Source of the DNA: Halichondria panicea
Taxonomy: Eukaryota; Porifera; Demospongiae; Suberitida; Halichondriidae
Assembly: GCF_963675165.1 (NCBI RefSeq)
Contig: NC_087391.1
Location: forward strand, 3,584,646 to 3,648,645
DNA length: 64,000 nucleotides
Reading direction: 5' to 3'
Shown here: piece after piece, positions 5,553-27,007 of the stretch
How positions within the stretch are numbered: the stretch's first letter is position 1
How the letters are laid out: each line of letters starts with the position of its first letter
Position numbers and translations under genes: made by a program
Notes under the pieces: generated by a model
The model's database searches: none
Told to the model about the DNA's origin: nothing
The model's input: only the letters and a program-made list of their open reading frames with translations

Positions 5553-7332
5553 TCACAGCTGCATATCATCTGCAAGTGGTACCCACCAGTAATACTTCAC
5601 AGGTACTTTGCAAATATCTCCCTGTAGTGTGTGTACACGTGCATGTGTGTGTGTACATGAGCTATACAAAATCAGGTATTTTTCTACAATACTTGAAAGT
5701 ATATAGTTACGTGCATGCTTATAATTATAGCATAAATTATAGCATAAATTATAGCATAAATTAAACTTACTTCCGGTTGATGAACAGGACAGGTGTCAAA
5801 CAAGCCATTTCCTGAGAGCTTGGTAAACTACACAAGGATAATAATGAAAACTCATATGCAAGAAAAAATTGACATACTTTTATTGACTCCATAGCATCTG
5901 CTCTCATAGAGGTTTCAGGTACATTCAATGTATCGTCAATTTCAATATTAGGAGAGTTTCGTTGTTCTCTGTTTACCTCCTTCCTCAACTGTTGTAGCTC
6001 ACTAACATCGACTTTATTCTCTTCAACCACACCAAGATAGAACTCCAAACTTTGTTCCATGTGGTCATGAGTTAGCCTGACATGGTAGAGTGAGTCTAAA
6101 GCCGTAGCAGTGTATAAGAAAGCAAGCAAAAAGTTACTGGCTTTATGTACATTTTCTCTATCATCAACAAACTGTATTGATGCAAAACTCCACATCATAA
6201 GACAAATAACAGCGTTTAGTATTTCATCTTGCAACAATCCTCGACTGGCAATCTCTTTCAAGCACTTCCCATCTTCTGTCATAGACCCGAGCCAATCAAG
6301 GCATAGACTACACAACTCCCCAATCTGGAAATTCATTCGTGTGAAGTACTGCGTCACAAAAGTGTACCTGTCAACTGACAGGAGGGATGCAGTGACGTCT
6401 TCTTTCGGCAAACCAGGAGAAATACTGTCTAGCAAACGATTAGAGGGAAGAGAGTTGACATCAAAGTATTTCAATACAGGTTGCATAGCTTTTATGCTTA
6501 GTCCGAAATCAGAACTATAGCAGACAAGAAAAGATGTAAGTGACCTACAAAGAATACTACACTCCTCAAATATTTTATGAATGGGAATTGTTCCACTAGC
6601 AAATGACATCACTCGAATAGCATAGGCCAGGAAGTACGCATAAACTGAATGGCCTAGGGGGCCTATTACCAGAGAAGTCTCAAAAGCAGTACAAGCACTA
6701 AGCACGTAAGTACCTGATCGCAAATTAAGATCGCAAGCAATTAGTTCATTAGCAAAACCACCCGCATAACAGCAATCGAGAGAAATAACAGCATACAGGG
6801 ATTGACAATCAACTTCATTGAGCCAGCTATTCAACATGTCTCCACTCAGAAAAGTGCTCCGCGAGTAATCAAAATCAGCTGGTGCAAGTCCCCACTCATT
6901 GCCAACCTTAATCCCATGCCCAGAGAAATGAAAGAACAAGATTCCATTTTTTCCAGTCATCTTAGCAGCAGCTTGAAAGCTATCCTTTATTCCCTCAATA
7001 GTGCACATGTCAAGATCTTTAGAGGCAGCGAATAACCGAACATTATCTTTTGGTAGCACATTTTGGTCAATTAGTGCCATACAAACCTGATGAGCATCCA
7101 ACACGGTCACAGAACTTAGAGTCTTCTTACTAAACCTGGGGTCAATTTGCTTATCGATGCCATACGCCACCATAAATGTTTGAGATGGGTCATACTGTAA
7201 GGAGTCCACTTTCTGATTTCCAATGAGGATAAAACTGCTCTCTAGGTCCACACTGTAGAGTCTTCTCAGGGCCGGTTTAGATCTACCTTTAGAGGAATCA
7301 GAAGCTCTGACACTAGACTGAGTTCCACCCAT
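5553..7332 (-). CDS. Caspase-like (clan CD, C14-type) cysteine peptidase with N-myristoylation signal
   Basis: Three exons (7332-5878, 5827-5771, 5621-5553; all phase 0, introns 50 and 149 nt) give 526 residues. The catalytic pair is visible: SGHG with His139 and LDCCYAGG with Cys188, in the p20-like fold shared by caspases, paracaspases and metacaspases. The start MGGTQSS fits an N-myristoylation site (Gly2, Ser6), which suggests membrane anchoring. The N-terminus is short and basic with no death, CARD or zinc-finger domain. The C-terminal half (about 270-526) is helical and unassigned. The frame also runs through the first intron to a stop at 5767, but strong donor and acceptor sites (GTATGT, TGTAG) and a continuing frame favour splicing. 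Subfamily is not settled; DCC resembles metacaspases. Confidence 0.85.
5725..5764. repeat. 12-bp tandem repeat
   Basis: The unit TTATAGCATAAA is repeated about three times, inside the second intron of the caspase-like gene just past its donor site. Confidence 0.85.
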
Positions 7333-7633
7333 TTTTCATGAATTGTCAGCACAGTGGTTTGCACAACAGTACAGTACAGATGAGCACAAGCCTTTTATAG
7401 GTTGTTCAGCTGGGTATGAATCGTTGATGCTTTTTAGCTGAATACTTCATTAGCACTGCTAGCTAGATATACATGTAGATCTGTAGTGCATATGACAGTA
7501 AGGATTGGTACATCTATATACAATTAATTAAATGCACTACAGCTATATAGTTGTCTAGAACAACACAATATAATTAAGAAGTAGGTAGCAGACAATGACA
7601 TAAAACAAATACGAGATCAAAATTGTTATAAGT
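7333..7633. other. Intergenic spacer
   Basis: This spacer separates the caspase-like start from the AP4S1 stop. It should contain the caspase-gene promoter and the AP4S1 3' UTR. No other feature is seen. Confidence 0.5.
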
Positions 7634-8601: not shown

Positions 8602-8745
8602 CTTGCAGCTTGTGCTTTGGCCACTCAAGTTTCGAGAGATGATGAATCCTGGGTTAGGCCACGCCCAATTAAGTTAGGTGTTGTTTGCTGAATCAGCACA
8701 TGCAAGGCCGAAAGGTGACCTTGCAATTGCAAGCGTAGCGCTGTC
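8602..8745. promoter_or_regulatory. Bidirectional promoter AP4S1 / SLC46-like
   Basis: The two start codons lie only 144 bp apart on opposite strands, so the genes probably share a promoter. The spacer holds a MARE-like palindrome and a GGTGACCTT box. Promoter function is inferred from layout. Confidence 0.6.
8686..8698. promoter_or_regulatory. MARE-like palindrome
   Basis: TGCTGAATCAGCA is a perfect 13-bp palindrome (around one central base) differing from the Maf recognition element TGCTGA(C/G)TCAGCA only at its centre. In animals such sites bind Maf/CNC bZIP factors such as Nrf. Binding here is inference. Confidence 0.45.
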
Positions 8746-11059
8746 ATGGCTGTTGTTCCAAAAATGATTTCTACCCTGAAACATCTATTCGCAACACTGT
8801 GGAATGCAAAGATTAAAGTGGAGCCATTGGTTTTTCTCTATATGTTTGTTTGGTCATTCTATGCACCACTGTACCAGCAATACTACTATGTGAGATTTGG
8901 AACGAGTCTATTGCAAGATACAAGCTTCCCCTTGTTAAATAGTTCGCAACCGTATTGCCTCAACAACTCTGAAATTGTGAAATATGCTAGCGAAGCAGGG
9001 AGTCATCAGGTTCAATCTCTCTCGAACACTTTACTTTCATATGGACAGCTGGCAAATCGAGTACCTTCGATAATTATTGTTTTTATTATTGGTCCTCTGT
9101 CAGACCGGTATGGACGTAAGGCTGTGCTGCTTGTTTCAGCCATTGGGTTGGCGTTGCAGTCGGTATTAGCAGTGATAATCACTATGCAAAATCTGAGCCC
9201 ATACTGGTTTATTCTTGCCAACCTTTTGTCTGGTGTATGCGGTGACATAACTGGTATTCTGGCTGGTGCCTTTTCCTATGTGTCCGACGTAAGCTCAAAA
9301 AGGTGGAGATCATTTCGAATAGGTTATACTTGTGCCATGTTTGAAGTAGGTGTAGCACTAGGGAGCTTTTTGTGTGGGCTATGGCTTAGTAATACCAATT
9401 GTGATTTTATTCCTCCAATGTGGCTCGTTATGGGTTGTTCAATTGGAATTGTGGCTTGGATTCTTATTCTTGTCAAAGAATCCTTAACGGATAAAGACAA
9501 GGTTAAAGCGAAAGAAACCCATCCACAGCTGTACACAGTTTTATTGAACGGGCTCAAGCTGTTTGCTAAGGGTCCCTCACTTTGGAAACGATGGGCTGCA
9601 GTTATAACTTTGGACATTCTATTTATAAATGCTGTTGGCAGCTCACTAGTAATTGTTTACTTTTTGAAGTCACCGCCATTTGATGCTGAACCTGTAACTA
9701 TCGGTATTTACCAAGCACTCGTTTCATTGTCCAGTGCGATATGTGCTTCAGCTGTAATATTTGTAACAAGTGTTGTTTTGAAATTACCAGATTCAGTAAA
9801 TGCCTTTCTTGGTGTTTTCTTTCAGTTTGCTGCAAATATGCTGATGGGATTTGCAAGAACAAATATGGAGATATATTTCAGTAAGTATAATCAACACATG
9901 CGTATCTTATTCACCCATTACTTCTGTAGTTGCACTTGTACATGGAGTTCAAGTGATGGGTTTTGCCTCACTGAGAACAATGTTATCCAAGTTAGTTTCA
10001 CCAGAGCAGCAAGGTAAGTGGGTGAATACTACCTATACAGTAATAGATATACTGTAGCACAAGACTGAGTGTTTTATGAGGAACAAGCACAAGGCTGTAT
10101 ATTGCATAAAACTCGAGGAATCTCATGCATGCTATGTGTGTTATCATGTCGACCCTTTCTAAATCCTGCCTCGAGGCTATACGCTAATGTGTAATAAAAT
10201 AATATAACACGGGGGAACTTAACGTGATATAAAATTGTATTTGCGTCAACGTGTTTGAGAGGTTACATGATAGAAGGTCTAACTGCAGGTGCTCTGTTCT
10301 CTGTGGTTGTGTCTTCAGAGTCTGTAGCTGCTCTACTAGCGAGTCTCTTGTGGCCACTTATTCTTCCAGTAATGCTCGATATAAAACTGCTTTGTAATTC
10401 AGGATCAATATATTTTGTGATGGCCGGCTTCAATGTGGTGGCAGCACCTCTTGTGATGTAAGTTTTAAATAGTACACTTATAGTGTAAGTGTTTACGACC
10501 AACCTACATGTACATATATGAAGCATGTTTATTGGCCAACACTTAAGGTTACGGTCAACCGTTTGCTCATTAATTATTCATGAGCTAGATCTAGTGATCT
10601 TTTCCAGCTAGAATGAGCTGGAAGTCCAGCTGAAACGCAGTAGTCACTTCATGGCTCGAATAGACATTTTTACTATAAAGCTTAGGTACAGGCTTCACTA
10701 TATGCAGGGCGGGTCGAAGAGATATTTCGAAAAAAGGCTACTGAAAGCTCACAAGAGGCTGTTTTCCTTGGCTTTGGCCGCCATTTTAAGTGGAGTTAGT
10801 CTACATAATAATTATCATACAGATTGATACACCGATATATGTATCATGTGTGCTTCAAACTTCTCTTATGGCATTTATAGTTTCACAAAAATCATTATAA
10901 GAAAATAATGAATATTCATGAGCAAAATGTTTACCGTAACCTTAAAGGCCTTATTCATGCATAATAATCATTGAGCTGTTTCTTTGTAGAGCCCTACTAG
11001 TTTCTGAAGTACGGCAAACAAAATTTATGACAAAATATGGATACTACTCTGTAAATTAA
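8746..11059 (+). CDS. Major facilitator transporter, SLC46 (proton-coupled folate transporter)-like
   Basis: Exons 8746-9880, 9930-10013, 10289-10457 and 10990-11059 join in frame to 485 residues. The MFS signature GPLSDRYGRK sits between TM2 and TM3, about twelve hydrophobic segments are visible, and SPEQQG precedes a late helix as in SLC46 members. A long first loop with NSS and NNS sites matches the glycosylated first loop of SLC46. Family members carry folates or other small solutes across the plasma or lysosomal membrane; the substrate here cannot be told. Intron 3 (532 nt) contains a 0.4-kb TTAA-flanked element. The gene converges tail-to-tail with TDP1. Confidence 0.85.
10543..10945. 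repeat. TTAA-flanked MITE (piggyBac-like), copy 1
   Basis: TTAA-GGTTACGGT at the left end is mirrored by ACCGTAACC-TTAA at the right end, followed on each side by a further inverted match (GTTTGCTCATTAAT.. and ..ATTCATGAGCAAA). TTAA target sites are typical of piggyBac-type transposition. It lies in intron 3 of the SLC46-like gene. Relatives are at 37010-37545 and 46189-46630. Confidence 0.75.
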
Positions 11060-11589: not shown

Positions 11590-14500
11590 TTACTTGGGAG
11601 GTGTCCACATGTTACCACAGCGATCGGGATCATGATACTGAGTGTTCCATACCCACGGTTCATCTACAATTGTTACGACAAAACAGTGAATTTGATATGC
11701 AGAAATTAGTGTATATACGTACGTTACTCACCTTTGGCTGAATACTTGGTCAGAGGAATATCAAACGGAGAACATCGCAAATGCACTTCGGAATCACTTT
11801 TGTCACTTGAATCTGTATAGCCTCAGGTATACATGTGAAAGAAAAGACACTGGTTATATAGCATACCTGACATTTTATCACTTGGAAGACTGAAAACAGT
11901 ACCAGCAGGGCTCTGAAAATAACATTCAATAAAATTAAAACGTCACTTTAATAAACATACAAAATCAGATGGCAAAAAGAGCACTCCAATCTCGTATGAT
12001 CTGATCTTGAGCTGTGTTCCTTTTTTCTCAAAGCAGCCCCATGCTGCCTTTGACAAGTTGGCACTGAATGATTTGCGAATTTTGTCTTGACAGTGAATAT
12101 GCAATAATCACCTTGTTACTAGAAACCAGAGTGCTTTTAGGCAGTCTGGAGATAGCCTTGTATATGTCTTGATATGAGGAGCAGCGTGCGTCCTTCCAGT
12201 CCTTTCGGCTTTCCACTGACTGTAGTTGAAATGTTGCAGTGAACTACAATGTGATATTACAACCATCACAAAATGTTTTCTCACCACATGTAGCTCTTGA
12301 GATAGAGCTGCTTTTGTGCATTCTGCACCGAATAAGGTATCGAACCTCCAGCTACATGCATGCATGCATACAATGTAATTATGTATATGGAAAGGTCAGT
12401 AGTATATTAAACAATTGAGACCTTATAGGAAGGAGTACTGTACATTCATACTGGCATTGTTAGCCTTGCAATAGAAAGGAAGGAATTAACTCTTCGTTCT
12501 ACCAAAGAAAACCGGCCTGGGGACAAGGCTTGAATTCGAGGCTTGTTAGCCTCACAATAGAATGGAAAGAAAATATTTTTCTCACTCCGTTCTACCAAAG
12601 AAAATTGGCCTGGGGACAATAGGCTAGCTACTTGTATAACGTTGGGATGTGGTTTATGTTTGGTAATACACCTGCATGATTGAAATACAAAGGTGATAAT
12701 ATTTTCATGGTTATTAATGAGAGTAAAATCGCAAAAAATGTGTACAATTGGAAGATGCAATGAATCTCATTAAAACACTTTGCAGAAAATGAGCTGAACG
12801 GCTACAAAAATACACTATTATACCTGAAAATAAGGAATATAATAATTATACATGTACAGTAGACTCTCGTTAATCCGGTCACTCTTGGGACCATGCAGCT
12901 TGGCCGGAATAGCGAGGTGGCTGTAGCTCAGGAAATAGCCACGGTGACCTTACCTCGAATCTAATGACTACTTTTGCGGTTCTTGTCTTGAGGATAATGA
13001 AGGATAAAGAATTATTCTGTTCTCTATGTAATCCAATTTTATTTGCTAAACCACACCCAAAACGTCATATCCGGCCGTAATATACGTCTAAAATTACATT
13101 GAAAACCTTGTTTGGGATAGCCAGCACTGGCCGGTAAATGAAATAGCGAGTGGCCGTACTTCAGACAGCCGGAATAGCGAGAGTCTACTGTATACAGGCA
13201 ATCTGTACATAGGCTAATAAAATTAATGATAGGCAGTGGCTTGAGCATAATCTTACTGATCGATGCCCACCTATGTATCCTTCCAGACTTCTTCTCACAT
13301 TGTCAACAGATGGAAATATCTGGAAATTGACGGATACAGAAGATATTGTACATTGCAATTGAACAATTTAAGTGCATTCTCTATCAGCGATTAACAAACT
13401 ATATACTGCAAACTTACTAGTTTTAAATCAGGATTCTTTTGACTGAGACAACCTCTAGTAGTAAATGAGGATGAAAGGCTTTGGAGCCACTCAGCACAGA
13501 GCCAGTTGCTACCAGGTCCCAGAGACCCAATACTGGAAAACTGACCCACCACTGGCCAGTGCTCATCCACACCACTCTCAGAGACAAACTCAGATAAGAC
13601 CTATACATTAACCATGGTCAGTCGCAAATACTACAGAATAGAACAAAACAACAAACCTTTCGTAGCTTTAAGTGCCCCCATTTGTGCATGCTACTTCCAG
13701 TATGAGCGCCAGGCACAGATGCTATCAGTCGTACTCTAAACACAAAAAAGTTGCTATATAAAATATTCATGAGAACCGACAAACCTGGCGGAGCTCATAT
13801 CATGATTCCTGATCCATTTCTTCCACTCATTTAGAGCAGATCCACCATATGCGTCGAGGTATTCCTACAAACACAAATAGGATGATAATTCTATACTAGT
13901 TTTTATGGGCGTGCATACAAGCAGATCGTGTTGGAAATTAGTGCAGTGACTAGCTGTCGAAGAGGATGGTTGTGATAAATAAGAACTGGGCCGGGTTGTA
14001 GTGTTGGATGAGGGAAACATTGGACTGATCCAAACTCTGCGTAAGCGGGATTTACATTAGTAGATTCATTACAGAGAGACTGTACCCCTGAGTTTTTTGA
14101 TCCCAGTCTTTAGCAATCAGATTTGCAGTGTGAACAATGACACGCATTCCACTTTTATATCGCAGAAACATCATCTTGCTGCAGGCATAAACATTACAGA
14201 CATACTTGTACCTGTACTTCGTAAGAACAGGTATGCATAATTCTGAACTGATCACCCTGACATTGTGCATAGATTATGCTCAGAGAGATTACGACTGTGC
14301 GCACAATGATTCGAGGGACCCGTCACAAAATACTTGGTCCCCCTCGGACCAGAGGAGGTACGACACGCGTGCCTCGATTTAGCAATAACGTTGAGCATGG
14401 GCATTATTATCCGCCCACAACGTTATTGCAGAGGCTAATTGCTAAATTGAGGCACGCGTGTCCGTGTCATACCTCCTCTGCCCCCGGACCAAAATGTCAG

Positions 14501-17500
14501 GAAAAAACCATAATAATTATTTGGTCGGGGGGGGGGGGGGGTCGAACAATATTTCAGCTAGCAGCGATCGACTGTTAAAGATTTTATTCTAGCCTTACTT
14601 CAATTGTATTTGCCATGCATAAACTGTTCAAGAAATTATTACAGTGCAGAGGACCTTTACAGGCTCGAATTTTCTCTAATTGAAGAGAGGCTCAAGATTT
14701 CGAGGCTAAGACATGTATAAGCTAGCCAAGATCAAGATCAACTGTTCATGTTGTATGTTGCCTTACAGAGTTGCCATCAGTGTATATAGATATACGGCTA
14801 AACACAAAATGATTCCAGCAAATGCTATCTACAGATTATACACATATACTGTTTTGATTGCTGCAGGCATCGACTTTTACCATAGATAAAAGATTGGCAA
14901 CGGGTCAGTGACTCACCTCACATAAGCTGCATATAAAATGCACATGATACAGCCGTGTTTCGCTCCCTGCCCCGGCCCGGGAAAACTACTTATGGGTTGT
15001 TTTGGAAAATTCAGACCTTATAGGTTAAATTTGGTTTGGATTGCTAGAAGAGGTACAGAACATTCTTTTTCGCTATTTTAGGATGTTTCTGTACCTAGAG
15101 TAAGTAATCAATTTTCGACAGACACCTATAATCGGCGGCTATTACACGAAGCACAGGACGATTTTACACAAAACTAACTATACATGGATCTACAGATGTA
15201 GCTGGTGGCCAGGGGACATGCTTATATAGGATTTGTACTGCTGCACTGAAGAGTGCAGCCCAATCAGATTGCAGTATTTCTAAGCTAACGATATTCATAA
15301 CCGGACGTGCGGTTTATTCATGATGCTTACAGAGCAGTATTGCATAACACAGCAGTACAAATCCTACACAAGCATGTCCCCCGGCCACTCGTTGGAAATG
15401 GGTGCCGGGCTATGCCCAGCTACTACAGATGGGTAAGAAAGTAACAGCTCCCAAAAATTTTGAAAAAATAACTTGTTGCGGACGGAGTGGTGGTCATGAG
15501 AAGTAAGCTGCCAATTATCGTCAGTCAGACATCTATCTCCGTCTTTTCACGCTTACCAAGCACTGAAACCAAGCACTGAAACCATAGATAGAAGAGAAAG
15601 GGATTGGCAACGGAAGCAGTTCACGTGATGCTTTTACATTGAGTGTACACAGATGGGCCTGAAACCATCCGTGTTTCGCCCTAAAACTCCCGGGAAACTT
15701 ATTGTGTCTAACGCCTATTTCTCAAAGACCCCTCCAACACTTAAACACATGCCCCCTGATGGTAGGTATCATTTAAAAATGAATAAAATATAATCTTGAT
15801 TTTCGTGAAGTAGCTAGAGGTACACAGAGCGTCTGTCAGAGGCTTTTTCATACTTGTGCTCCTATAGCACCTATGATATAGCTAAGGTTGTGTTATTAAG
15901 TAGTGTGCTATGTCCCAAATGGCCACACAAATGACGTGAAGTTGATGTTAGTAGTAGAACTGCTTGTAGACTTTTTTTACAGGCGGCAAAAACAATTCTC
16001 ATGAATTATTCATGTTTAGACTCCCACGTTAGAAGTAAGCCTCGAGGCGAAACACGGATGGTACCGGAAGTGCACTCCGTTGCTAATCCCTTTCCTTCTA
16101 TCTATGCTGTGAGCTCTCTTGCAGTGGCTCTGGCAGTGGCCATTGTGCGGAGAATAAATTATTGCTGATTCAGTTAACTGACATGCCCCTCTTATTTTTA
16201 TTTTGCCATTTTGTTTTGATTTGCGAGGTTTCAGACTAAAGGGGGTCCGGATTAGCAAGGGTATACTATAATAGCTTCATGTAAAGGTTTGGCGTCTCCA
16301 CCGAGGCAGCACCCGCGGTGATTTAATTTGATTCATGAATAAATTACTTCTACTTTTTCCCGCAGGTGGTAGCAAAAACGAGAATTATATCAAACTACTA
16401 CCATTGGTAAGTACATATGGCTAACGAATAACATATGTTGGCGGGATATTTGTAGTGGCTGGAATGTACACGACATATGCATTGTGACAATTAGTGGTGA
16501 CCTCCATCGACTGGCATTCGATTCAAGGACACCTGCTTTCTTTCACAACAAGTTTTTTATTGCGAGAGATAGGACAGTAATGGACTGTGCAGAAAATAAA
16601 CTTCTTAGGAGAAAATTAATAGAGAGGAATACCAAAAAGAAGTATAGGTTTACTTTACAGTTGTATGCAAAAGTTTCAAACCTGTGATGAGTTCCAAACA
16701 TGATTTCCAATCTTGCCTGTATAAAAAAGAGATCAACAAGGAATGCAAGTGCAAATAACGCACAGGAAAGAGGGTTATGTTTGGAAACAGCTTTGCATCC
16801 CTCCTTAGTTGTAGAGTAGTTTCTCTTTGGTCCCCGTAAACAATAAGCATTGGTGTACTCCTGTGGTGGTAGAACAGATTGACGTAATTACTCCCTGCGT
16901 GCGCAGCAGGGGTGAAGTGATTGGTGTGTGTGTGTGTGGACACAGCGAACTAAACACTTTCACGGACTGCTAATGAGACAGTGGTTGAAAAATAAGCTAC
17001 TTATAGTTGAACTTGTAGGCAGTCTTTGAAGGCAACAAAAAACACTGTTTCTAATTGATCTAATTGTTGCTTTATAGATTCACGATCATTCCTTCATTCA
17101 TAATGTTAAGATCATGGTAAAATAATCCGTTTGCCGCTGTGAGGTGAATGCTCTATGAGCAATCTTGTTAATTACATCTACTGATGCTCAACACTCCGAT
17201 ATGCTAACAACACAATATCGACTCAAATGCATGTGGCCCTCCCTATGACATTGATGGTGCTTAAGGTTGGGTTGTCCCTCTCCACGAATTAATGTCCTCC
17301 CAATAAATAGTCTGGAAAAACCTTCTAGCCCATTTGCAATGTTTAAGTTGCTATAGGATTGGTCAGGGAAACCAGGTGTGGAAGCAATCAAGCAGGAGAG
17401 AGCCATACACATCAATCTGTCGCAATGTTCTGTAAATGGGGGTGGGGGGGGGGGGGGCAATTGCTACCTACACTAGTAACTAGGACTGCGCAATTGGTAA

Positions 17501-19965
17501 TCTAACTTTGCTTGTGTGATTATAATTATATGATCACTACATACAGCAATGTTGACCAGGAAACGCATTAAATGTTGACATGCAAGTTTTGCATGTGTAG
17601 ACGATGCAACTATATGCAAAAGATTTCATGACAGTATAAGACACAATAATTATTAGCACAGTCGGTTGTGGAACAAACCGTTTAGCTTCAGGATACTGCT
17701 GGATCAGCCAAGGGAGGTCAAAAACGTAGTTAAACTGGGAATACAACAATAATAATATTCTACCTTAATTTAGTATCATACCTGAGCTGACATAACAAGG
17801 TCTCCCACAGACTCTGACAGCAGATCTATGATTATAATTATAGGAAATTATATTATACCGGTATATTTGGCGAATGAGGCAATTGAAGTAATGGCAATTT
17901 TTAGTTGGCAACCCTCATGCACCTTGAGTCCTTGCTTCCCTAATAAATTGCCAAAATATGGCGCCAAATCAAATCAAATATACCCGCTACACGATAGTGG
18001 TAAATACTGAGATCACCTTTGATTCCAATAGCCATGGTGGGTTCATTGAAGCGAGGGGCTATGTTTCTGACTTTGGTAAAGTAAAAAAAGGCAGTGCTGC
18101 TGTCAGTAATGCGAACTGGTTCATCAGTACAATGTGTCCTTGGTTTCTTCTTGGGCGGTTCTTCCAACTCTTCATCAGCTGAAAAAATTCACGTATATAG
18201 ATCCAGCTCAAAGGCTTTTGATTATCTAGCTAAGTAGCCTCATCTTACAGAGTAGTCCTAAACTGACCTTAATTGCACATACCATAATTATTAATGTTAT
18301 TACAGTGGTATCACAATTTAAGCACACAATTAAAGCACCATCTCAGAATGAATACCAGAAACGATAACCGTGCAACCGCTTACAAAAAGGATTCCAAGGC
18401 AATCGCCTTCACTTTTAGGCCTATAACATATACCGCGTACATGCCTGTTGGATATCTCAGGGTATATGCTGCCTTTGATGCAAATTATATTATTTTGAAC
18501 GCCAAATTATAAAAATGTTTAATGATAAAACGATTGATAATCGATTCGCTAATTGAATCGCTATTCGATTAATTTGCTAAACGATACTGAAAGTACACTA
18601 CCACGGAACCAATACTGGGTGTGGCTACTTCGGCACCACGAAGGAGCTAGCTTTACATACATGTTTGTGAGACACGACGCATTATTGGAGCACTAGCTAG
18701 CTGCTTACTGGTCAAAATCTAGGTAGCTCACTGTAGTAGCGTATGCGTATATACAGTGGAACTTCCGAATAAAGGAGACTTTGGGAGCAGAGATTTTGTC
18801 CTGTTTTCGGAGGTTGTCCTCTGGTGGTTACTATTTAAAGCCAAATGTTCATGTATGGTCTGTATGGACCCTATTTCTAGTTCAAAAAGCTATAAGGAAC
18901 TTGCTGAAATCAAGGATATAAAGCATATTCCTTACAGTATGCTATTATAGCATACCGGTATCGCTATAGTGGCAGTATGATTAGCAATAACCTCTGCCAT
19001 ATTGGACGTAAAATGTGGGTGTGGTTTCCTGTTCGTCCATTTATAATACGAGGCAGTTTTGCTGTCCTCTGTCCAGAATCAAAAAGGTCCGCTTGTGAGA
19101 CGTTGCTTTTGTGTACTTAAATAGTGATTTCAATGGGTGCCATAGCTAGATCTAGTGCCCTTTATGAGAGGTTGTCCTTAGCAGACCTTTACTCTTCTTC
19201 CCCCCTGAGAAAAGGTCTGGCCCAGACTAGTGCCACCATAGATAAAAGAGCTACATGGATTGGAAACGGATCACGTGCTCCCATCTGAGCAGCCGTGTTG
19301 TGCTCCCTACCCCCAGGAAACTACTTCTATGGCTGTTTTGGAAAATTCAAACATCTTCAACAATGGGGATTAGCCCCAGAGCGCAACGCGGATAGTTTTC
19401 AAGGCGCTAGATTAAGTGTTTCCACTTCTTTTATCTATGGTGCCACTATGCCTAGACGAGCGCCACCGCCCTCCCTGAAGGAGGTCGGGAATCAAGCCTA
19501 TCCACAGTTTTGTTCTGGCCTGTTACGCAATAGTATCATGAATATCATTCATTCTATGTGGGCGCTAGCCAATAGCGATAATTATTAAAGTGGGTGTTAG
19601 CCACGCCTCACAGTCAATCCAACGTGTGCAAAATTCACATGTGGTAAAGTTGAGTGGGTGTGATCAATCCACTTAAGATACTGCAATCTGATTGGAGCTG
19701 GTGGAGAACAAAACTGTGGATAGGCTTGATTCCCGACCTCCTTCCGCGGATCCGGGCAACGGTAGAGGGCGGCAGCGCCCGACTAGGGCCTAGCCACTAG
19801 CACTCTGAATGTAACATTTTTCTGGCGCTGTAATTACATCTATTACTATAGTATGTGATATAATACTTTTGACTTAATATATATACCTGGATGACTGAAC
19901 TGCTTGAAATGCTCAGGATTCTTTCGGTAGCACTCTCGACCATACTTACACATTGATTTATCCAT
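11590..19965 (-). CDS. TDP1: Tyrosyl-DNA phosphodiesterase 1 with N-terminal PBZ zinc finger
   Basis: Eighteen exons join in frame to 517 residues: 19965-19887, 18178-18017, 17825-17782, 17734-17679, 16860-16764, 16716-16682, 14178-14086, 14036-13919, 13864-13785, 13735-13657, 13600-13418, 13319-13271, 12351-12285, 12219-12112, 12063-11961, 11912-11867, 11812-11732, 11663-11590. TDP1 removes tyrosine and other adducts from DNA 3' ends, including stalled topoisomerase I. Both catalytic HKN motifs are present: His157-Ser-Lys159 with Asn177, and His396-Ile-Lys398 with Asn419, at human-like spacing. Exon 1 encodes a PBZ finger, C6-x5-C12-x6-H19-x5-H25 with [14 protein letters not shown], of the APLF/CHFR type that binds poly(ADP-ribose). 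Residues 34-38 (PPKKKPR in exon 2) could be a nuclear signal. Introns 1 (1.7 kb) and 6 (2.5 kb) are filled with inverted-repeat elements. Confidence 0.95.
12459..12628. repeat. Imperfect tandem duplication
   Basis: Two copies of about 80 bp share TTAGCC..CAATAGAA.GGAA and TCTACCAAAGAAAA..GGCCTGGGGACAA. They lie in TDP1 intron 12. Confidence 0.65.
12857..13190. repeat. TA-flanked TIR element, pogo/Tigger-like MITE
   Basis: The ends CAGTAGACTCTCGTTAATCC and GGAATAGCGAGAGTCTACTG are inverted repeats flanked by TA on both sides. The CAGTAGACTCTCG terminus and TA target fit pogo-type Tc1/mariner elements. No transposase is encoded. It lies in TDP1 intron 12. Confidence 0.75.
14334..14492. repeat. 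Foldback element in TDP1 intron 6
   Basis: Arms from TTGGTCC (14334) to CAATAACGTTG (14392) and from CAACGTTATTG (14417) to GGACCAA (14492) are inverted repeats of about 60-75 bp around a short loop, so nearly the whole unit can form one hairpin. A run of about 16 G follows at 14527-14542. Confidence 0.75.
14527..14542. repeat. Poly-G tract
   Basis: About 16 consecutive G bases; a similar G run lies near 17440-17457. Either may be miscounted by sequencing. Confidence 0.7.
15205..15391. repeat. Foldback element in TDP1 intron 6
   Basis: The arm ..GGACATGCTTATATAGGATT.. ending GTACTGCTG is mirrored by CAGCAGTAC..AATCC..AAGCATGTCC, giving about 40-bp inverted repeats around a 100-bp centre. 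Confidence 0.75.
15583..16109. repeat. TIR element (CCATAGATA family)
   Basis: The left end reads CCATAGATAGAAG..AAAGGGATTGG.AACGG and the right end is its inverse, ..CCGTTGCTAATCCCTTTCC..CTATCTATG. The subterminal CCGTGTTTCGCC is mirrored too. Related ends occur at 14880, 19237 and 52891. Confidence 0.7.
19231..19447. repeat. TIR element (CCATAGATA family) in TDP1 intron 1
   Basis: TGCCACCATAGATAAAAGAG at the left is mirrored by CTTTTATCTATGGTGCCA at the right. It has no coding capacity and abuts the next foldback. Confidence 0.75.
19438..19800. repeat. Foldback element in TDP1 intron 1
   Basis: GAAGGAGGTCGGGAATCAAG.. (from 19477) is mirrored by ..CTTGATTCCCGACCTCCTTC (to 19744), about 40 bp perfect and extending outward imperfectly through GCCACCGCCCTC / GAGGGCGGCAGC. 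Confidence 0.8.
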
Positions 19966-21289
19966 TTTTACTCTGAGAAAATCTACTGCAAAATCTACTG
20001 CACACACCAGAATTGAAAAAAACTTCTAACTCACTTGCCTACGGTGCCAGTGCAGTGCTAGTATAGTCTAGTCGAGTTCGAGTCTGGGGGCTAGTTCTGG
20101 ATATATCCTAGCCTCGATTCAATTTAATCGGCCTTGAATCGAGGCTAGATATATCCATAGATGATACTCAGTACTGTATCATCTATGATATATCCTATCT
20201 AGATCCTTGGTGGCGACCTAGATCTAGCGTTATTTTAGAGATAACTCGGCCTGGGAACAAGCCTGTGGCCTATAGACAGGATTGTAGGAACAAAGAAAGA
20301 AAGAGAGAAGGCCCAAAATAATGTGCTGCAGACCCTGTGTATAGTTTAATAATACATGTAGAACAATATTCTTTCCTTTTTTTTTTTTAGGACAAAACCA
20401 AGTAGATCTAGCAACTGAAAGCTAATGTATGACGACTGCATGGAAGAAAACTGTCTTAGCGAAAGGAAGTTTGTCATACTGGTTAGGTTTTGGGTGGGGG
20501 TGGAGTGTAAATCTGGCGAGGGGAAGGCCTCCGAGAATTCTGCGACACAATGTTACTTCTGTTGAGAACGGGGTCACCCCAATGTTTGGTGCATAGTCTC
20601 TCGCGGCAAATTTCTGCACTGACTCCAGTTGGTTTCAATTTATAGCAATTATAAATGTAACTCAACAGTTAATTGTATGTACCTTCTTTCATAAATCATC
20701 ATACACTTGAAGTACATGATATATAGATCAAAGTCATGATAAACTGCAGATACGTCATTTCCTTCGTAGATCTGCATATACATATACCGGACGGAACTTA
20801 TCGGACAGTGCCAGGTTGGCATTCAAGTTCCACTCCAGAATGACCAAGGCTTTGTAGAACATAAGGTCGGCAACTATGCGTTTCAAGAATAGTTCAATCC
20901 CATAATTATACTTGCATTGGACGGTGCCAGGTTGGCAATTCAAGTTCCGGAATTCTGCAGTGTACTTAGTTTTAAGTCTCTTGGGGACTACTTTCTTATA
21001 GTACTTACTATATAGTTGCTGCTGCTCACTCACTTGTTGTTTTTTGGATATTGTCCTAATACTGTTATGTCTGTAATACTGTCACTGTCATTTTCATGTC
21101 AGTCTTTTGTTTTTTGCTTGTTATTTTTGCCTCCAGTTGTAGCCTTCGATGTAATATATTTTTCACTCTATATAGGAAAGCTACAATCAATTTGACAGAG
21201 CAGTTTGAAATATTAATATGTCTATACCGGTAACACACCACCCTTACGGGATGACATAACTTCTAAAGGAGAATGCTTCGATGTGTTGT

Positions 21290-21640
21290 AGGCGTATTAC
21301 AAGATAATTCTGTTGTATCAACAAACTTCACAAGCATGGTTTGGATGGTTTGGTTGAACTGCTCAACTAAGTCCATTTGCCTGCAGCAATAATTTACATG
21401 TAAGCAATGTCAAAAATGTGTGTATAATTATATGTACGCACTATTATAATTATTATCACACTATTATATTATCACACCTGCATGCGGGTGGTAAGGAGAC
21501 CGATGTTGAATACCCAATATTAATTACCATTAGTCTTATCATCCATATCATTGTGAAACTCTCCACCCTGATTGGAAGTGATGACTCTGGCAGTCCAAAC
21601 ATCATGAAAACCTGGATGTACTTAATTTAGTACGTTGTAG
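21290..21640 (-). pseudogene. Broken retroelement integrase fragment
   Basis: Read on the minus strand, pieces of an integrase core appear in shifted frames: VFMMFGLP, then VITSNQGGEFHNDMD (the D-x-G-x-E-F region), then HRSPYHPHAG, a gap of about 110 bp, then MDLVEQFNQTIQTMLVKF. Frame shifts and stops separate the pieces, so this is a relic. The source family (gypsy or KRBA2-type) is unresolved. Confidence 0.6.
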
Positions 21641-22388
21641 AGAGAAGCAGCAACTCCAGAAGTAAGCTTGTTTTCCAATTTTAAAGAATTTTAGAAAATT
21701 TGTAATAACAATAAAATTATTATGTCTACGCTAATAATAAATCGAAAATGTACTTTTGAGAATATAATAATTATTATGCTAAGCAAGATAGCCCTTTTTT
21801 CATCTATATCTGACTCCAAACGTATGTTTCATTCAACCTTAAAACTCATACTTATTGACCAATAATGAATTTTGCTGCAAATCCGCCAAAATCTTGTACC
21901 GTATAAAATTATGAAAACGCTAAAAATTACTAATAATAGTAACTTAAGCTTTATAGACTAGGTAATGCAAACCTCATCAACAACATCCAGTGTAGTTAGT
22001 TGCTTTCCTTCTGATCACTCTCTTCTCATTCTTTGTAGCCTCAGGATATAAAGTTCTTGAGTGTATATATCTATACGCCATCTAGCCTGCTTTCTCTATT
22101 AATATACTCTCAGTCTGTTCTCTTCAATCTTGATCGTGATGTGTATGCAAACAGGCTAGCTATAGTATGCTACAGCCTGCTCTCATTGGCTAGGGAGGAC
22201 CAAATATCGCTGCCATAGATAGTTCGGGGGACCATCTACAGCGTTACAGAGATATAATTACACAATTTAAGTCACGTAGATTTATGTACAGAGAAGAAAT
22301 GTTTGTGGGTTATAATATTTGCGTTTCAATGCCAAGAAACCACGCCCACCAATAGCTTTGCATGTGAAACGCCGGTACGTGGGAGTTT

Positions 22389-22545
22389 TCGCATTAACTG
22401 CTCTGCCCTTGAAAAATGCGAAATTTTTGCATCTCACGAAAATTTCCCGCTATACAGATTTGCAGCACCATGGGTAGGAATATCAGTACAATACTTATTA
22501 CATAAACACGAAATAAAGAGGATTCAAATAGACATTCTAGCACTT
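22389..22545. repeat. Element end plus ectopic copy of symplekin exon 26 region
   Basis: 22408-22455 is one end of a TATAGCGGGAAATTTTCG-type element. From 22461 the sequence GCAGCACCATGGGTAGGAA.. resembles 42010-42095, which contains symplekin exon 26 (minus strand) and adjoining intron. It looks like an old partial duplication. Confidence 0.5.
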
Positions 22546-22905
22546 CTGCGACCTTGTATTTTAAGATCATCAGTGCACACAGATTAGCTTTCACATGTGT
22601 AGAAAATGTATCTAACCGGTTTATGTGCAAGGTTTCTATTTACAGAATCTCATTCATACAAACAACATGTTGTCACACACCCAGAAATAAACTTAATATT
22701 GATGAGAAAAGTTCCGCATTATTGTCCTAAACTTGTTTAGTGTACAAGGATAATCGTATACAAGTATAGAAACACGAACTGGATTCATACCAATGTTTAC
22801 AGTTCAACTTCCATAATGTGACATGTTTTCCGGTACAATCATGTTTGCAATGGCTCTATACAAATATAATTTTAACAGCATCTCACACTAGTGGGAAAAA
22901 TAACC

Positions 22906-24264
22906 ATGAGTTCACTAAAAAAAGTATTGCTTGTCTTCTGCTTAGTAATTATTATTGGAGGTGAGACTATATACATTTTGTTATACATTATGTTTATATG
23001 GAAACTATTACAGACACAGTCTACTCTCAACTCACCACCAGCTACAGTGACAGAGCTTGTCCAGGACTTCAAACCTTCACGTGCAAGGGGGCAGGGGATA
23101 GAGCTGAATGGCGAATACTTCCCAGCGGAGAAGACTTTATTTACTTTGTGGATGTCTCCAGCACTACAAGAACAGCAACAAGGCGTATCGGAGGAGAAAC
23201 AGCAATAGGCATATTCAACAGCAACACAATAACTGGAAATTTCACAGCCTTGTTAGTAGTATCTATTTCAAATTCTCTGGAAGGAGCCAGGGTATCATGT
23301 CGTGGCTTGGGAAGTACAGACATTGGAATCTTGATCATTCAAATAGCTAGTAAGTACTATACACCTGCACATGCAGCCAAATACATTAATTACCGATGCT
23401 ATTCAGGTACCCCATCAGCACCACATAGCTTCTATCAACTGAACCGACTGATTTCCAGCAGCTCAGTGGATGTGACTCTGGGTTGGAATGCTCCAAATAA
23501 CACTGGTGGTGCTAATATTGTTAGCTACACAGTGACTATCTCCCCTCCAGTACAGCTCCCCGCTAGTGTCGTCTCCACTACCACTGCAATTGTATTCGGG
23601 GCAGAATACAATGTGCTATATAACGTCTGTGTTGTGGCCACCAATTGTATTGGAATGAGCACAACACCTGGAGTATTCACTTTTCAAGTTGGTGCGTCAA
23701 AGGTCAAATTCTTATGTATGAATGAAGTACTAGCTGCTTTGAATGAAGCACTGCTTTAATAACAATTCACAACAGGTAGATGCCCCACACCGGTTGCTCC
23801 CAGCAGTGGGTTGATTGGACCAATGGGGAACAGACTAGTAGGCTCGACAGTGACATTTCAATGTGGCCCAGGGTTTGAGCCGAGTGGATTGGTGACAGCC
23901 ACGTGCATGAGCACACTCATTTGGAGTCCAGACCCAGCAACTTTTCAGTGCACCACAACAAGTGAGCACGGGTATACGATCAGCTTCTATACTTACTATC
24001 ATTCCACAATTCTCAGGTGCACAGGGCACTGTGATGTTCAGCACAATACAACTTGCTATTAGTTTAGTGGTGACATTCATTTCATCAGCACTAATTGGAC
24101 TAGCAGTAGGGGTATGTGGAGCATGCCTGATCATGCACAAACGATCATCTCTAGCAATGGATCAGATGAACAACCCAGCAGAACCAGCTGAATACGAGGA
24201 AGTACAGCCCAACCCATGGAACATTGGAGTGAACGCAGCCTATAGCACAGTTACACAGTCCTGA
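22906..24264 (+). CDS. Type I membrane receptor: Ig-like, FN3, sushi/CCP, TM, tyrosine tail
   Basis: Exons 22906-22960, 23014-23349, 23407-23691, 23776-23961 and 24017-24264 join to 369 residues, all introns phase 1. Exon 1 is a signal peptide (MSSLKKVLLVFCLVIIIG). Exon 2 is an Ig-like domain (FTCKG..AEW..VSCRG). Exon 3 is a fibronectin III domain (TPSAPHSF..VTLGWNAPNNTGG..ISYTV-type strand). Exon 4 is a CCP/sushi module (RCPTPVAPSSGL..ATCMSTLIWSPD..FQC). Exon 5 has one TM helix, a basic stop (HKRSS) and a short tail with Tyr347 (YEEV) and Tyr363 (YSTV). This is a cell-surface protein with possible phosphotyrosine signalling; ligand unknown. The first ATG is 22906. Confidence 0.88.
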
Positions 24265-25576
24265 TTCTACCATAATTATTACTATCAAAATATTGCTCAA
24301 TAATAATTGTAATCGCAGCACCTGAATACTATGCCTTGAGGCATGTTTTACTGTGGTGAAGAGTTTTACTTAAGAGTTATGGAGCATGAGTATTATGACG
24401 GATTTCCTGTCCAAGACGCCAAATTAAAATACCGGCCATGTAGTGCTCATTCCACACCACTCACTCAGACAAGACCTGTACAAGACCTGTACAATGACCA
24501 TCGTCACAAAGGCCACAAAAGAGATGAAAAGCACAATAACACTAAATACACCACATGAAGTAACTAAAAGATACGGTAGGTAAATTGCTATTGTTACGTC
24601 ACTTATAAATATCATTCTAAGCTAAAAACAGTGCTCAAGAGGAATATGAAAATACTAGAATTGCATGGTTAATGCTCTAATCAGGTCTCAAATGTCCTAT
24701 TGTAGCCAACTTTAATTTGGCGCCCTCTCCTCATCAAAGACATTGAAAGTGTTCAACGTAGAGCTACAAAATTCATTATTGGAGTGAAATTAATTTCAGA
24801 GCTTATTTATAAGAGAACACTTGAAACACATCGGATGTGACTGCATGCAACTATTTTAACAGAATCACTCAGCTCTATGGAACAAAATGGCCGCATAGAT
24901 CTATATCCCTATCGGTACATAACTATCAAAACTAAGCTCTACAACGTCAAGGTCATGCATGTGCATGGTTAAGCTTCATTCACAACTTTAGTGGGGACAA
25001 TGTATATGTTCGTTTCATTTTAAATGTCCATGCTCTAGGTTTATACGAATTTTTTTCTCTCTTAGGTTAGCTGACAAGTACAAGCACACACACACACCAC
25101 TCTCATTACTATTCGTTCCCCTCATTATGAAACCTTATTATAAAGGCCAATTGTTATTCTGTGTCTTCAGACACAGAATAACACCAGAAAGGAACAAAAA
25201 ACACATTCACAATTGTTAGGACAGAACCAAAAAGCGTGGCAAGCGAGATCTAATCCTAGTGATTGTTCACATATTGCAAATGTGGTGTTTTTTGTGTGTT
25301 GCCAATGCAGAATAATATCGTTTGTCTAGTACATTGTGTGGGCGAAACCCTTTGAAGTCTAGGCTGCTACTGGCTATTTTTGTATACCTTGTTCCGTATC
25401 ATCCACCACTGCGCTGATCAGAAAAGGCTGAGGTAGCTAGATAATTAATGCGAATGCAAGGGGAAACAGATCCAAAATAATACTTGTTCAGTCTCAACCT
25501 ACATAAAATAATAATTATGTTTGACCATTGAAAAATTAACACACACACACACACACTCTAAATCTATACAATTTAA
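24265..25576. other. Intergenic region with LINE relic
   Basis: Apart from the RT relic at 24715-24960 and a perfect 13-bp hairpin around 25152-25182 (GTTATTCTGTGTC / GACACAGAATAAC), I see only AT-rich DNA and CA repeats (25085-25099, 25538-25556). No gene is supported. Confidence 0.5.
24715..24960 (+). pseudogene. Non-LTR reverse transcriptase C-terminal relic
   Basis: The text LLIKDIESVQRRATKFIIG followed by LIYKRTLET matches the thumb region common to LINE-type RTs (..I..VQRRATK.I.G..). It is short and soon meets stops, so it is an old fragment. Confidence 0.5.
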
Positions 25577-26206
25577 TCAAGTGTTTATATGGAGCTTTAA
25601 AGACTCAAAAATAATCATTGCCATTTTATCATAGCCTTGCGGAGTCATGTGCAATCCATCTACCCAGTACAGGTCCATTTCTTCTGCTGGTAACGTTCCA
25701 AATGGAAGACCGTTCCACAGATCGACAAAAAAAGTACTTGAATCAGATTTTTCACTGTACTGTTTAAGACCTTCGTTAACTTTTGCTTTCTCATTCTTGT
25801 ATGTCTCATTTTTTGGCGACAACTCGTATCTGAATTGAGGAATAGCAAGTGCTAATGTTTTTGCTCCTGTTTCCTTCGCCCTGTCGTGCAGTTTTAGCAG
25901 ATGAGGAAGCAGTTCGTCAGATTTTAAGTTCATACCCAGGTCATTAGTCCCTCCTAGCACTATTACCCAGTCATAGGGCTGCTTAGTTTTTCCAAGCAAC
26001 GTATCTAGACGATGTGTCATTGATGGTACAACGGTTTCGCCAGAAACACCGGCTGTTTCAACATTCACGTCAGTTTGGCAATGTTCTTGTAGGAGCTTTA
26101 GCAGATGTGTTGAGTATGGGTGAAATTCTCCACTACGCTGGAAAGTATAACCTTCAGTTAGGCTATCTCCAAAACACAGCACTCGTTGAGTCATACTTTC
26201 TGGCAA
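25577..26206 (-). CDS. SGNH/GDSL-family hydrolase
   Basis: One exon of 209 residues, a usual length for single-domain SGNH esterases. Block I is CFGDSLTEGY with nucleophile Ser15, block II contains the GVSGET glycine, block III is GGTND with Asn88, and block V is DGLHMTPQGYD with Asp183 and His186. No signal peptide or TM segment is seen, so it is probably cytosolic. Such enzymes hydrolyse esters or thioesters; the substrate is unknown. The intronless form beside intron-rich genes may mean a retrocopy or a transferred bacterial gene. Met1 or Met5 could be the start. Confidence 0.92.
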   Translation of the reverse strand: MPESMTQRVLCFGDSLTEGYTFQRSGEFHPYSTHLLKLLQEHCQTDVNVETAGVSGETVVPSMTHRLDTLLGKTKQPYDWVIVLGGTNDLGMNLKSDELLPHLLKLHDRAKETGAKTLALAIPQFRYELSPKNETYKNEKAKVNEGLKQYSEKSDSSTFFVDLWNGLPFGTLPAEEMDLYWVDGLHMTPQGYDKMAMIIFESLKLHINT

Positions 26207-27007
26207 ACTATAATATTACCAATTACCAATTGCCTAAATTTATTTGTTTCAGACTCATTATTTTTATGATGTCATATCCTGCTAAAAAAACTCAGTAATG
26301 ATGTCAGTATAGACAATAATTATAAAGGACAGCAGTGGACATGCTAAAAAACTCTCTAATTTCTCTCTAAAGTGTTTCAACTACTAGCAGACCAAGTTTT
26401 GTTTAAGAGGGGCCTGGGACACTTTTATCCGGAGAAATAATTATTTATCAGGGGGCAATTAATGTTATGTACTGTGGGGAGTCATAATAGATTCACACGA
26501 GTGTGGATCGACCATAGATCGATGACTGGGACTTTCAGTATTATTAAGACCACTTTTAGTTGCTTCAGACTCTTCAGTTTCACCGCCTAAATCATGCATC
26601 TACTGTATATACCAATAACTGTCAATGTGTCCCTCTAGATCATATACCGTACGCGTACAGCGGGACATTTCGGGAGGTGCAAAATTTTGCACCGGTATTT
26701 CACATGCAAAGCTTTTGGTGAGTGTAGTTTCCTAGCATTAAAACGTAAATAATTAGAACACACGAAATTTTTTGAGGCCAAATAGCGAAAATTTAGCGCT
26801 ATATGGTATACAGTAACCCGGCTGCAACACAGATCCAAATCTGAACGCAAGGGGTTAAAAGTAAATCTGGAACGATTTAGAAAAGTGGGACATGAGTTAG
26901 AAGGCATACACACCATAAAACTTGCACACCATAAAACTCTGGCATCATAATTAATAGTTAATACACATAATTATTGGATCACACAATTATTTTTTTAGGT
27001 CCGATTT
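26207..27007. other. Intergenic region with degenerate short element
   Basis: 26645-26820 has ends resembling the TACCGTA family (ATACCGTACGCG..CAGCGGGACATTTCG and GCGAAAATTTAGCGCTATATGGTATA). No gene is seen. Confidence 0.5.

Follow-up and report, generated by a model that had tools for sequence, protein, structure and literature searches.

TDP1 frees DNA ends from trapped proteins and is an anticancer-drug target. The human enzyme is not known to carry a PBZ, the zinc finger that binds poly(ADP-ribose) (PAR). This is consistent with the distribution of the finger in mammals, where it is reported only in APLF, CHFR and SNM1A (PMC4245714). The N-terminal region of human TDP1 is dispensable for catalysis and required for the complex with PARP1, and PARylation promotes recruitment of the enzyme to Top1 damage (PMC6009676, citing Das et al. 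2014); the same region bears regulatory modification sites (PMC6009676). The PBZ itself is illustrated here by human APLF, in which ADP-ribose is reported to be contacted by Y381, Y386 and R387 (PMC6264785), and in which binding is said to be over 1000-fold tighter when its two PBZ fingers act jointly (PMC4030884, PMC6264785).

Two further systems are close to the one described here. In Dictyostelium the PBZ is found in Ku70, Ung, Rad17, Chk2 and CHFR, a set with repair proteins, Ku70 for one, whose vertebrate counterparts lack it; the Ku70 finger is required for chromatin enrichment after breaks, a working precedent, and the Dictyostelium ligase III has a different ADP-ribose reader, a macrodomain (PMC5087659, PMC8529158). 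The Dictyostelium set differs in belonging to an amoeba and in consisting mostly of double-strand-break and checkpoint proteins, and the words Tdp1 and tyrosyl are absent from the main text of both papers. Ligase K/ligase E, known from bdelloid rotifers and certain further animals, likewise place a PBZ on an end-processing or end-joining repair enzyme (PMC6264785, PMC10665377), but they represent a horizontally acquired ligase family and are neither TDP1 nor LIG3.

The locus analysed here lies in a 64,000-nt stretch of Halichondria panicea DNA (the window) and very probably encodes a TDP1 composed of an N-terminal PAR-binding PBZ, a short NLS-like linker and a two-triad core, with splicing, PAR binding and recruitment predicted from the sequence (Table 1). 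To obtain the exons, open frames were compared with TDP1 and GT-AG borders that keep the frame were picked, so that the GT-AG borders and agreeing phases of the 18 exons are partly by construction, having been chosen for frame and homology. Position 11590 is the last base of the stop codon, in agreement with the original prediction. Residues 58-494 of the spliced protein matched the Pfam profile Tyr-DNA_phospho (positions 2-445 of 445, 437.4 bits, E=7.7e-131), residues 57-518 matched human TDP1 structures (e.g. PDB 6dhu, 6mj5; E=2.9e-137), and a two-sequence alignment gave 51% identity to the human TDP1 core. Comparison with one human sequence revealed that both H-K-N triads are kept, H157/K159/N177 in exons 6-7 and H396/K398/N419 in exons 14-15, the catalytic residues of TDP1. 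The gene product is predicted to be a TDP1 with an ordinary two-triad core, capable of hydrolysing 3'-phosphotyrosyl bonds. It resembles human TDP1 in the catalytic core and both triads and differs at the N-terminus, where a PBZ stands in place of the human region needed for the PARP1 complex. A weak Pfam match of the spliced protein to RHINO (E=0.0025) was under its cut-off and was disregarded. All three TDP1 profile matches in the 131-Mb assembly (39 contigs) fell in this gene, giving a single TDP1 locus. Its neighbours in the window are a caspase-domain protein (5773-7335, minus strand) and an MFS transporter (8719-10011, plus strand) on one side, and an fn3/Sushi protein (22965-24059, plus strand) and a GDSL hydrolase (25583-26215, minus strand) on the other.

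Table 1. Predicted features of the TDP1 gene (window coordinates) and of other PBZ-bearing loci of the same assembly (prefixed coordinates).
Feature	Position	Strand	Description
TDP1 coding gene, complete	19965-11590	minus	18 exons, 1563-nt CDS, 520 aa, no internal stop
TDP1 exon 1	19887..19965	minus	start codon (ATG, A at -3) and PBZ finger, C6/C12/H19/H25; donor CAG/GTATAT, phase 1
TDP1 intron 1	18179..19886	minus	1708 nt, GT...AG, phase 1
TDP1 exon 2	18017..18178	minus	acidic/basic linker, NLS-like PPKKKPR, then homologous core begins
TDP1 exon 6	16682..16716	minus	ends GTHH, first catalytic His, H157
TDP1 exon 7	14086..14178	minus	K159 and N177, first H-K-N triad; PF06087 over cut-off
TDP1 exon 14	12112..12219	minus	H396 and K398, second triad, PHIKTY
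TDP1 exon 15	11961..12063	minus	N419
Other TDP1 exons (a)	17825-17782, 17734-17679, 16860-16764, 14036-13919, 13864-13785, 13735-13657	minus	
Other TDP1 exons (b)	13600-13418, 13319-13271, 12351-12285, 11912-11867, 11821-11732, 11663-11590	minus	
Foldback 1 (MITE-like, dispersed)	19435..19816	.	perfect 40-nt arms 19477-19516/19705-19744; outer limits by eye
Foldback 2	19228..19448	.	22-nt arms 19228-19249/19427-19448
Apparent DNA ligase III with PBZ	C3:3317595-3320669	minus	PBZ at C3:3319095 between OB-domain end and BRCT, one strand, <3 kb
Apparent HPF1 with N-terminal PBZ	C13:2632516-2635584	plus	start-codon exon with PBZ at C13:2634016, then PF10228 (E=1.2e-15)
APLF-like gene	C15:2875294-2878362	plus	two or three PBZ fingers, at least some intron-split after CYR; several fingers or half-fingers over 2876339-2876862
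Sub-cut-off PBZ stretch	C8:2014018-2017077		at C8:2015518, 22.2 bits, just under cut-off, reads RPDCYWGKNCRTQVNKPHHA

The ligand spacing C6-x5-C12-x6-H19-x5-H25 that had been proposed for exon 1 was confirmed, all four ligands being present. The unspliced exon 1 frame matched the Pfam profile zf-CCHH (PF10283) with 55.1 bits (E=7.2e-15), the spliced reading at similar length with 54.3 bits (E=1.3e-14), and the full 520-aa protein over residues 3-28 (profile 1-26 of 26) with 49.3 bits, all three above the curated cut-off of 22.7 bits. The nearest solved sequence is human APLF PBZ1 (PDB 2kqb, E=2e-14), to which the finger aligns ungapped over 25 residues (16 identical, 3 similar) in the unspliced reading, final G included. 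Y8, Y13 and R14 align with APLF Y381, Y386 and R387, and the retention of these Tyr/Tyr/Arg contacts makes PAR reading by the TDP1 PBZ a good inference. The assembly yielded a list of 12 PBZ-like stretches with E<=10, four of them over the zf-CCHH cut-off, and the exon 1 finger headed this list by score (E=1.1e-12); a chance finger was ruled out by the profile score and this top rank in the genome. Simple arithmetic puts at about 3e-5 the probability that any of the four over-cut-off PBZs should by accident lie within the 2 kb preceding TDP1 and on its strand. The finger shares its ligand spacing and PAR-contact residues with human APLF (PDB 2kqb, 2kuo) and differs in setting: APLF has two fingers in a scaffold/histone chaperone, and in the present gene one finger stands at the front of an enzyme. 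By analogy with the paired fingers of APLF, the lone TDP1 PBZ may bind weakly and could need other contacts.

The attachment of this finger to TDP1 depends on the join between exons 1 and 2. Exon 2 begins at 18178 with the acceptor border TTTTTTCAG/CTGATG, and its phase-1 join to CAG/GTATAT is in frame. The stretch of exon 2 ahead of its first in-frame Met aligns with human TDP1 FYLTRVSGVKPKYN; the acceptor is closely preceded by a stop, and no in-frame ATG precedes the human-homologous stretch. Homologous sequence without a preceding ATG calls for coding sequence in another exon on the 5' side, closed by a phase-1 donor, and exon 1, 1.7 kb upstream, fits exon 2 in phase. The continuous frame from exon 1 through exon 2 into the TDP1 core that was originally predicted stands; the two H-K-N motifs themselves lie in exons 6-7 and 14-15, not in exon 2. 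The region 20600-18200 was scanned for other first exons (ATG to phase-1 donor, at least 8 codons, donor score at least 6), a scan that took ATG exons only and would miss an internal exon between exons 1 and 2. It gave four candidates: two correspond to exon 1, which has two ATGs, a third overlaps it in another frame, and the fourth is a 16-codon stretch at 19040-18992. The splice changes the consensus HPG to HPAD, and the near-equal scores of the two readings (54.3 bits spliced vs 55.1 bits unspliced) mean that the zf-CCHH profile does not favour the splice. The other PBZs of the genome are also without HPG, reading HPW in LIG3, HVG in HPF1, and HDV and HSD in the APLF-like gene. We are highly confident that the exon 1 PBZ and TDP1 form one gene, a predicted fusion with an N-terminal PBZ in which exon 1 is spliced to exon 2.

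Two alternatives to this constant fusion were weighed. Exon 1 could be a separate gene, encoding a tiny PBZ peptide or serving as the final exon for a gene further upstream: read straight on, it keeps HPG and meets a stop 12 codons later, and its open frame also extends 20 codons upstream of the ATG. This is highly improbable, since TDP1 exon 2 would be left without a start codon, and among the 17 open frames that reach 55 aa on the minus strand of 20030-26500, each compared with Pfam, only the GDSL hydrolase gave a match (E<=0.01); it sits beyond the plus-strand fn3/Sushi gene. That interval holds 37 open frames of this size, of which the 17 minus-strand and 4 of the 20 plus-strand frames were scanned, and small exons of unknown genes would escape such a scan. 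A somewhat less remote, still unlikely case is that of alternative first exons, with the PBZ in some TDP1 transcripts only and a PBZ-less TDP1 coexisting. The second ATG-to-phase-1-donor stretch at 19040-18992, within intron 1, could serve as such an exon; its donor, however, is weaker (GAG/GTTATT), and at just 16 codons it is too short for a domain scan and may be a chance match.

How the PBZ exon came to stand beside TDP1 is a further matter. Exon 1 is indeed separated from exon 2 by about 1.7 kb holding two foldback elements, as the original prediction noted, the intron measuring 1708 nt and containing two inverted-repeat elements. The possibility drawn from it, exon capture, weighed here as a recent event in which the foldback elements moved the PBZ exon beside TDP1, is not supported and is distinctly unlikely. 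Besides the position of the two repeats between exons 1 and 2, it could call on the match of TDP1 residues 3-47 to the first-exon region of HPF1 (44% identity, E=3.2e-6), but outside the finger that match consists of acidic/basic linker. Both elements belong to dispersed families, lie wholly inside the intron and do not carry the PBZ. Foldback 1 has at least 39 further matches over at least 254 query bases with 81-92% identity (40 scored of 178 first-look candidates in the assembly), and foldback 2 has partial relatives only, with 49 further matches of 70-98% identity over parts. Nor is the length of intron 1 odd for this gene, in which introns 4, 6 and 12 measure 818, 2503 and 919 nt. By eye, the TDP1 intron after HP is without equal in the other PBZ genes: HPF1 has no intron there, the APLF fingers are split after CYR, and in LIG3 a join close to that point would need an apparent GC donor (GC-AG intron) and falls in another phase. 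Shared PBZ exon borders among TDP1, LIG3, HPF1 and APLF were also considered as a trace of exon shuffling; the borders differ by eye, and nothing follows from them.

Beyond TDP1, the same assembly seems to carry PBZs in DNA ligase III, in HPF1 and in an APLF-like gene, which is new here. The ligase pieces matched the human DNA ligase 3 core (3l2p) with E=3.3e-39 as a joined query, against a best E of about 7e-4 for ligase 1, and the BRCT part, taken as read and searched by itself, gave four matches, every one of them a BRCT chain of ligase 3 (best E=2.7e-12). The gene on C15 is termed APLF-like by its split multiple fingers only, and the stretch just under the cut-off on C8 resembles CHFR. Given the reported restriction of the mammalian PBZ to APLF, CHFR and SNM1A, it is TDP1, LIG3 and HPF1 that are the departures. 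Drosophila HPF1 (CG1218) probably bears a PBZ as well; two papers searched for it gave no passage to that effect. Profile searches of the assembly further returned 56 PARP stretches, 55 of them over cut-off, and 10 PARG stretches, and XRCC1_N matched at two places (C9:6447441-6448000 and C8:6169962-6170684). On C15, PARP catalytic domains form a cluster on the minus strand (692184-770253), apparently of five or six tandem gene copies.

Returning to the fused PBZ-TDP1, the most likely and simplest reading of its function is direct PAR docking of TDP1 at trapped-topoisomerase breaks. PARP would form poly(ADP-ribose) at a break where topoisomerase I is trapped or the 3' end is otherwise blocked; docked on this PAR, the PBZ would keep TDP1 at the break; the core would hydrolyse the 3'-phosphotyrosyl bond; and the PBZ-bearing ligase III of the same genome could be drawn by the same PAR signal and seal the nick. 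That the PBZ acts in place of the PARP1 contact is plausible, as it sits in the region that matches, by position only, the N-terminus of human TDP1 engaged in the PARP1 complex. More tentatively, and with rather less than even confidence, a PAR reader in each protein of the repair chain, namely HPF1 (PARP cofactor), TDP1 (end cleaner), LIG3 and APLF (scaffold), might reflect a scheme of early animals for repairing topoisomerase-I lesions and single-strand breaks, for which vertebrates later substituted protein contacts through PARP1 and XRCC1.

Neither repair proteins with a PBZ nor the enzyme TDP1 are new in themselves; the PBZ-TDP1 combination is a variant. No mention of a PBZ joined to TDP1 was found in the literature searched, of which the available text was partial and mostly without subscription papers; the combination may well be catalogued already in domain databases such as InterPro, which lie outside that search. 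It is fairly likely that other invertebrate TDP1s also carry a PBZ. No TDP1 relative was confirmed in viral contigs (protein query, two-sequence alignment) or in prokaryotic contigs (alignment scan), a non-eukaryotic sample that says nothing about animals.

The PBZ-TDP1 architecture suggests a second route by which TDP1 reaches damage, reading PAR itself as opposed to binding PARP1. An old origin would mean that TDP1, LIG3 and HPF1 each lost a PAR reader in vertebrates, and what took over its role would become a direct question. If it is lineage-specific, the sponge gene would offer a natural fusion experiment on the PAR recruitment of repair enzymes.
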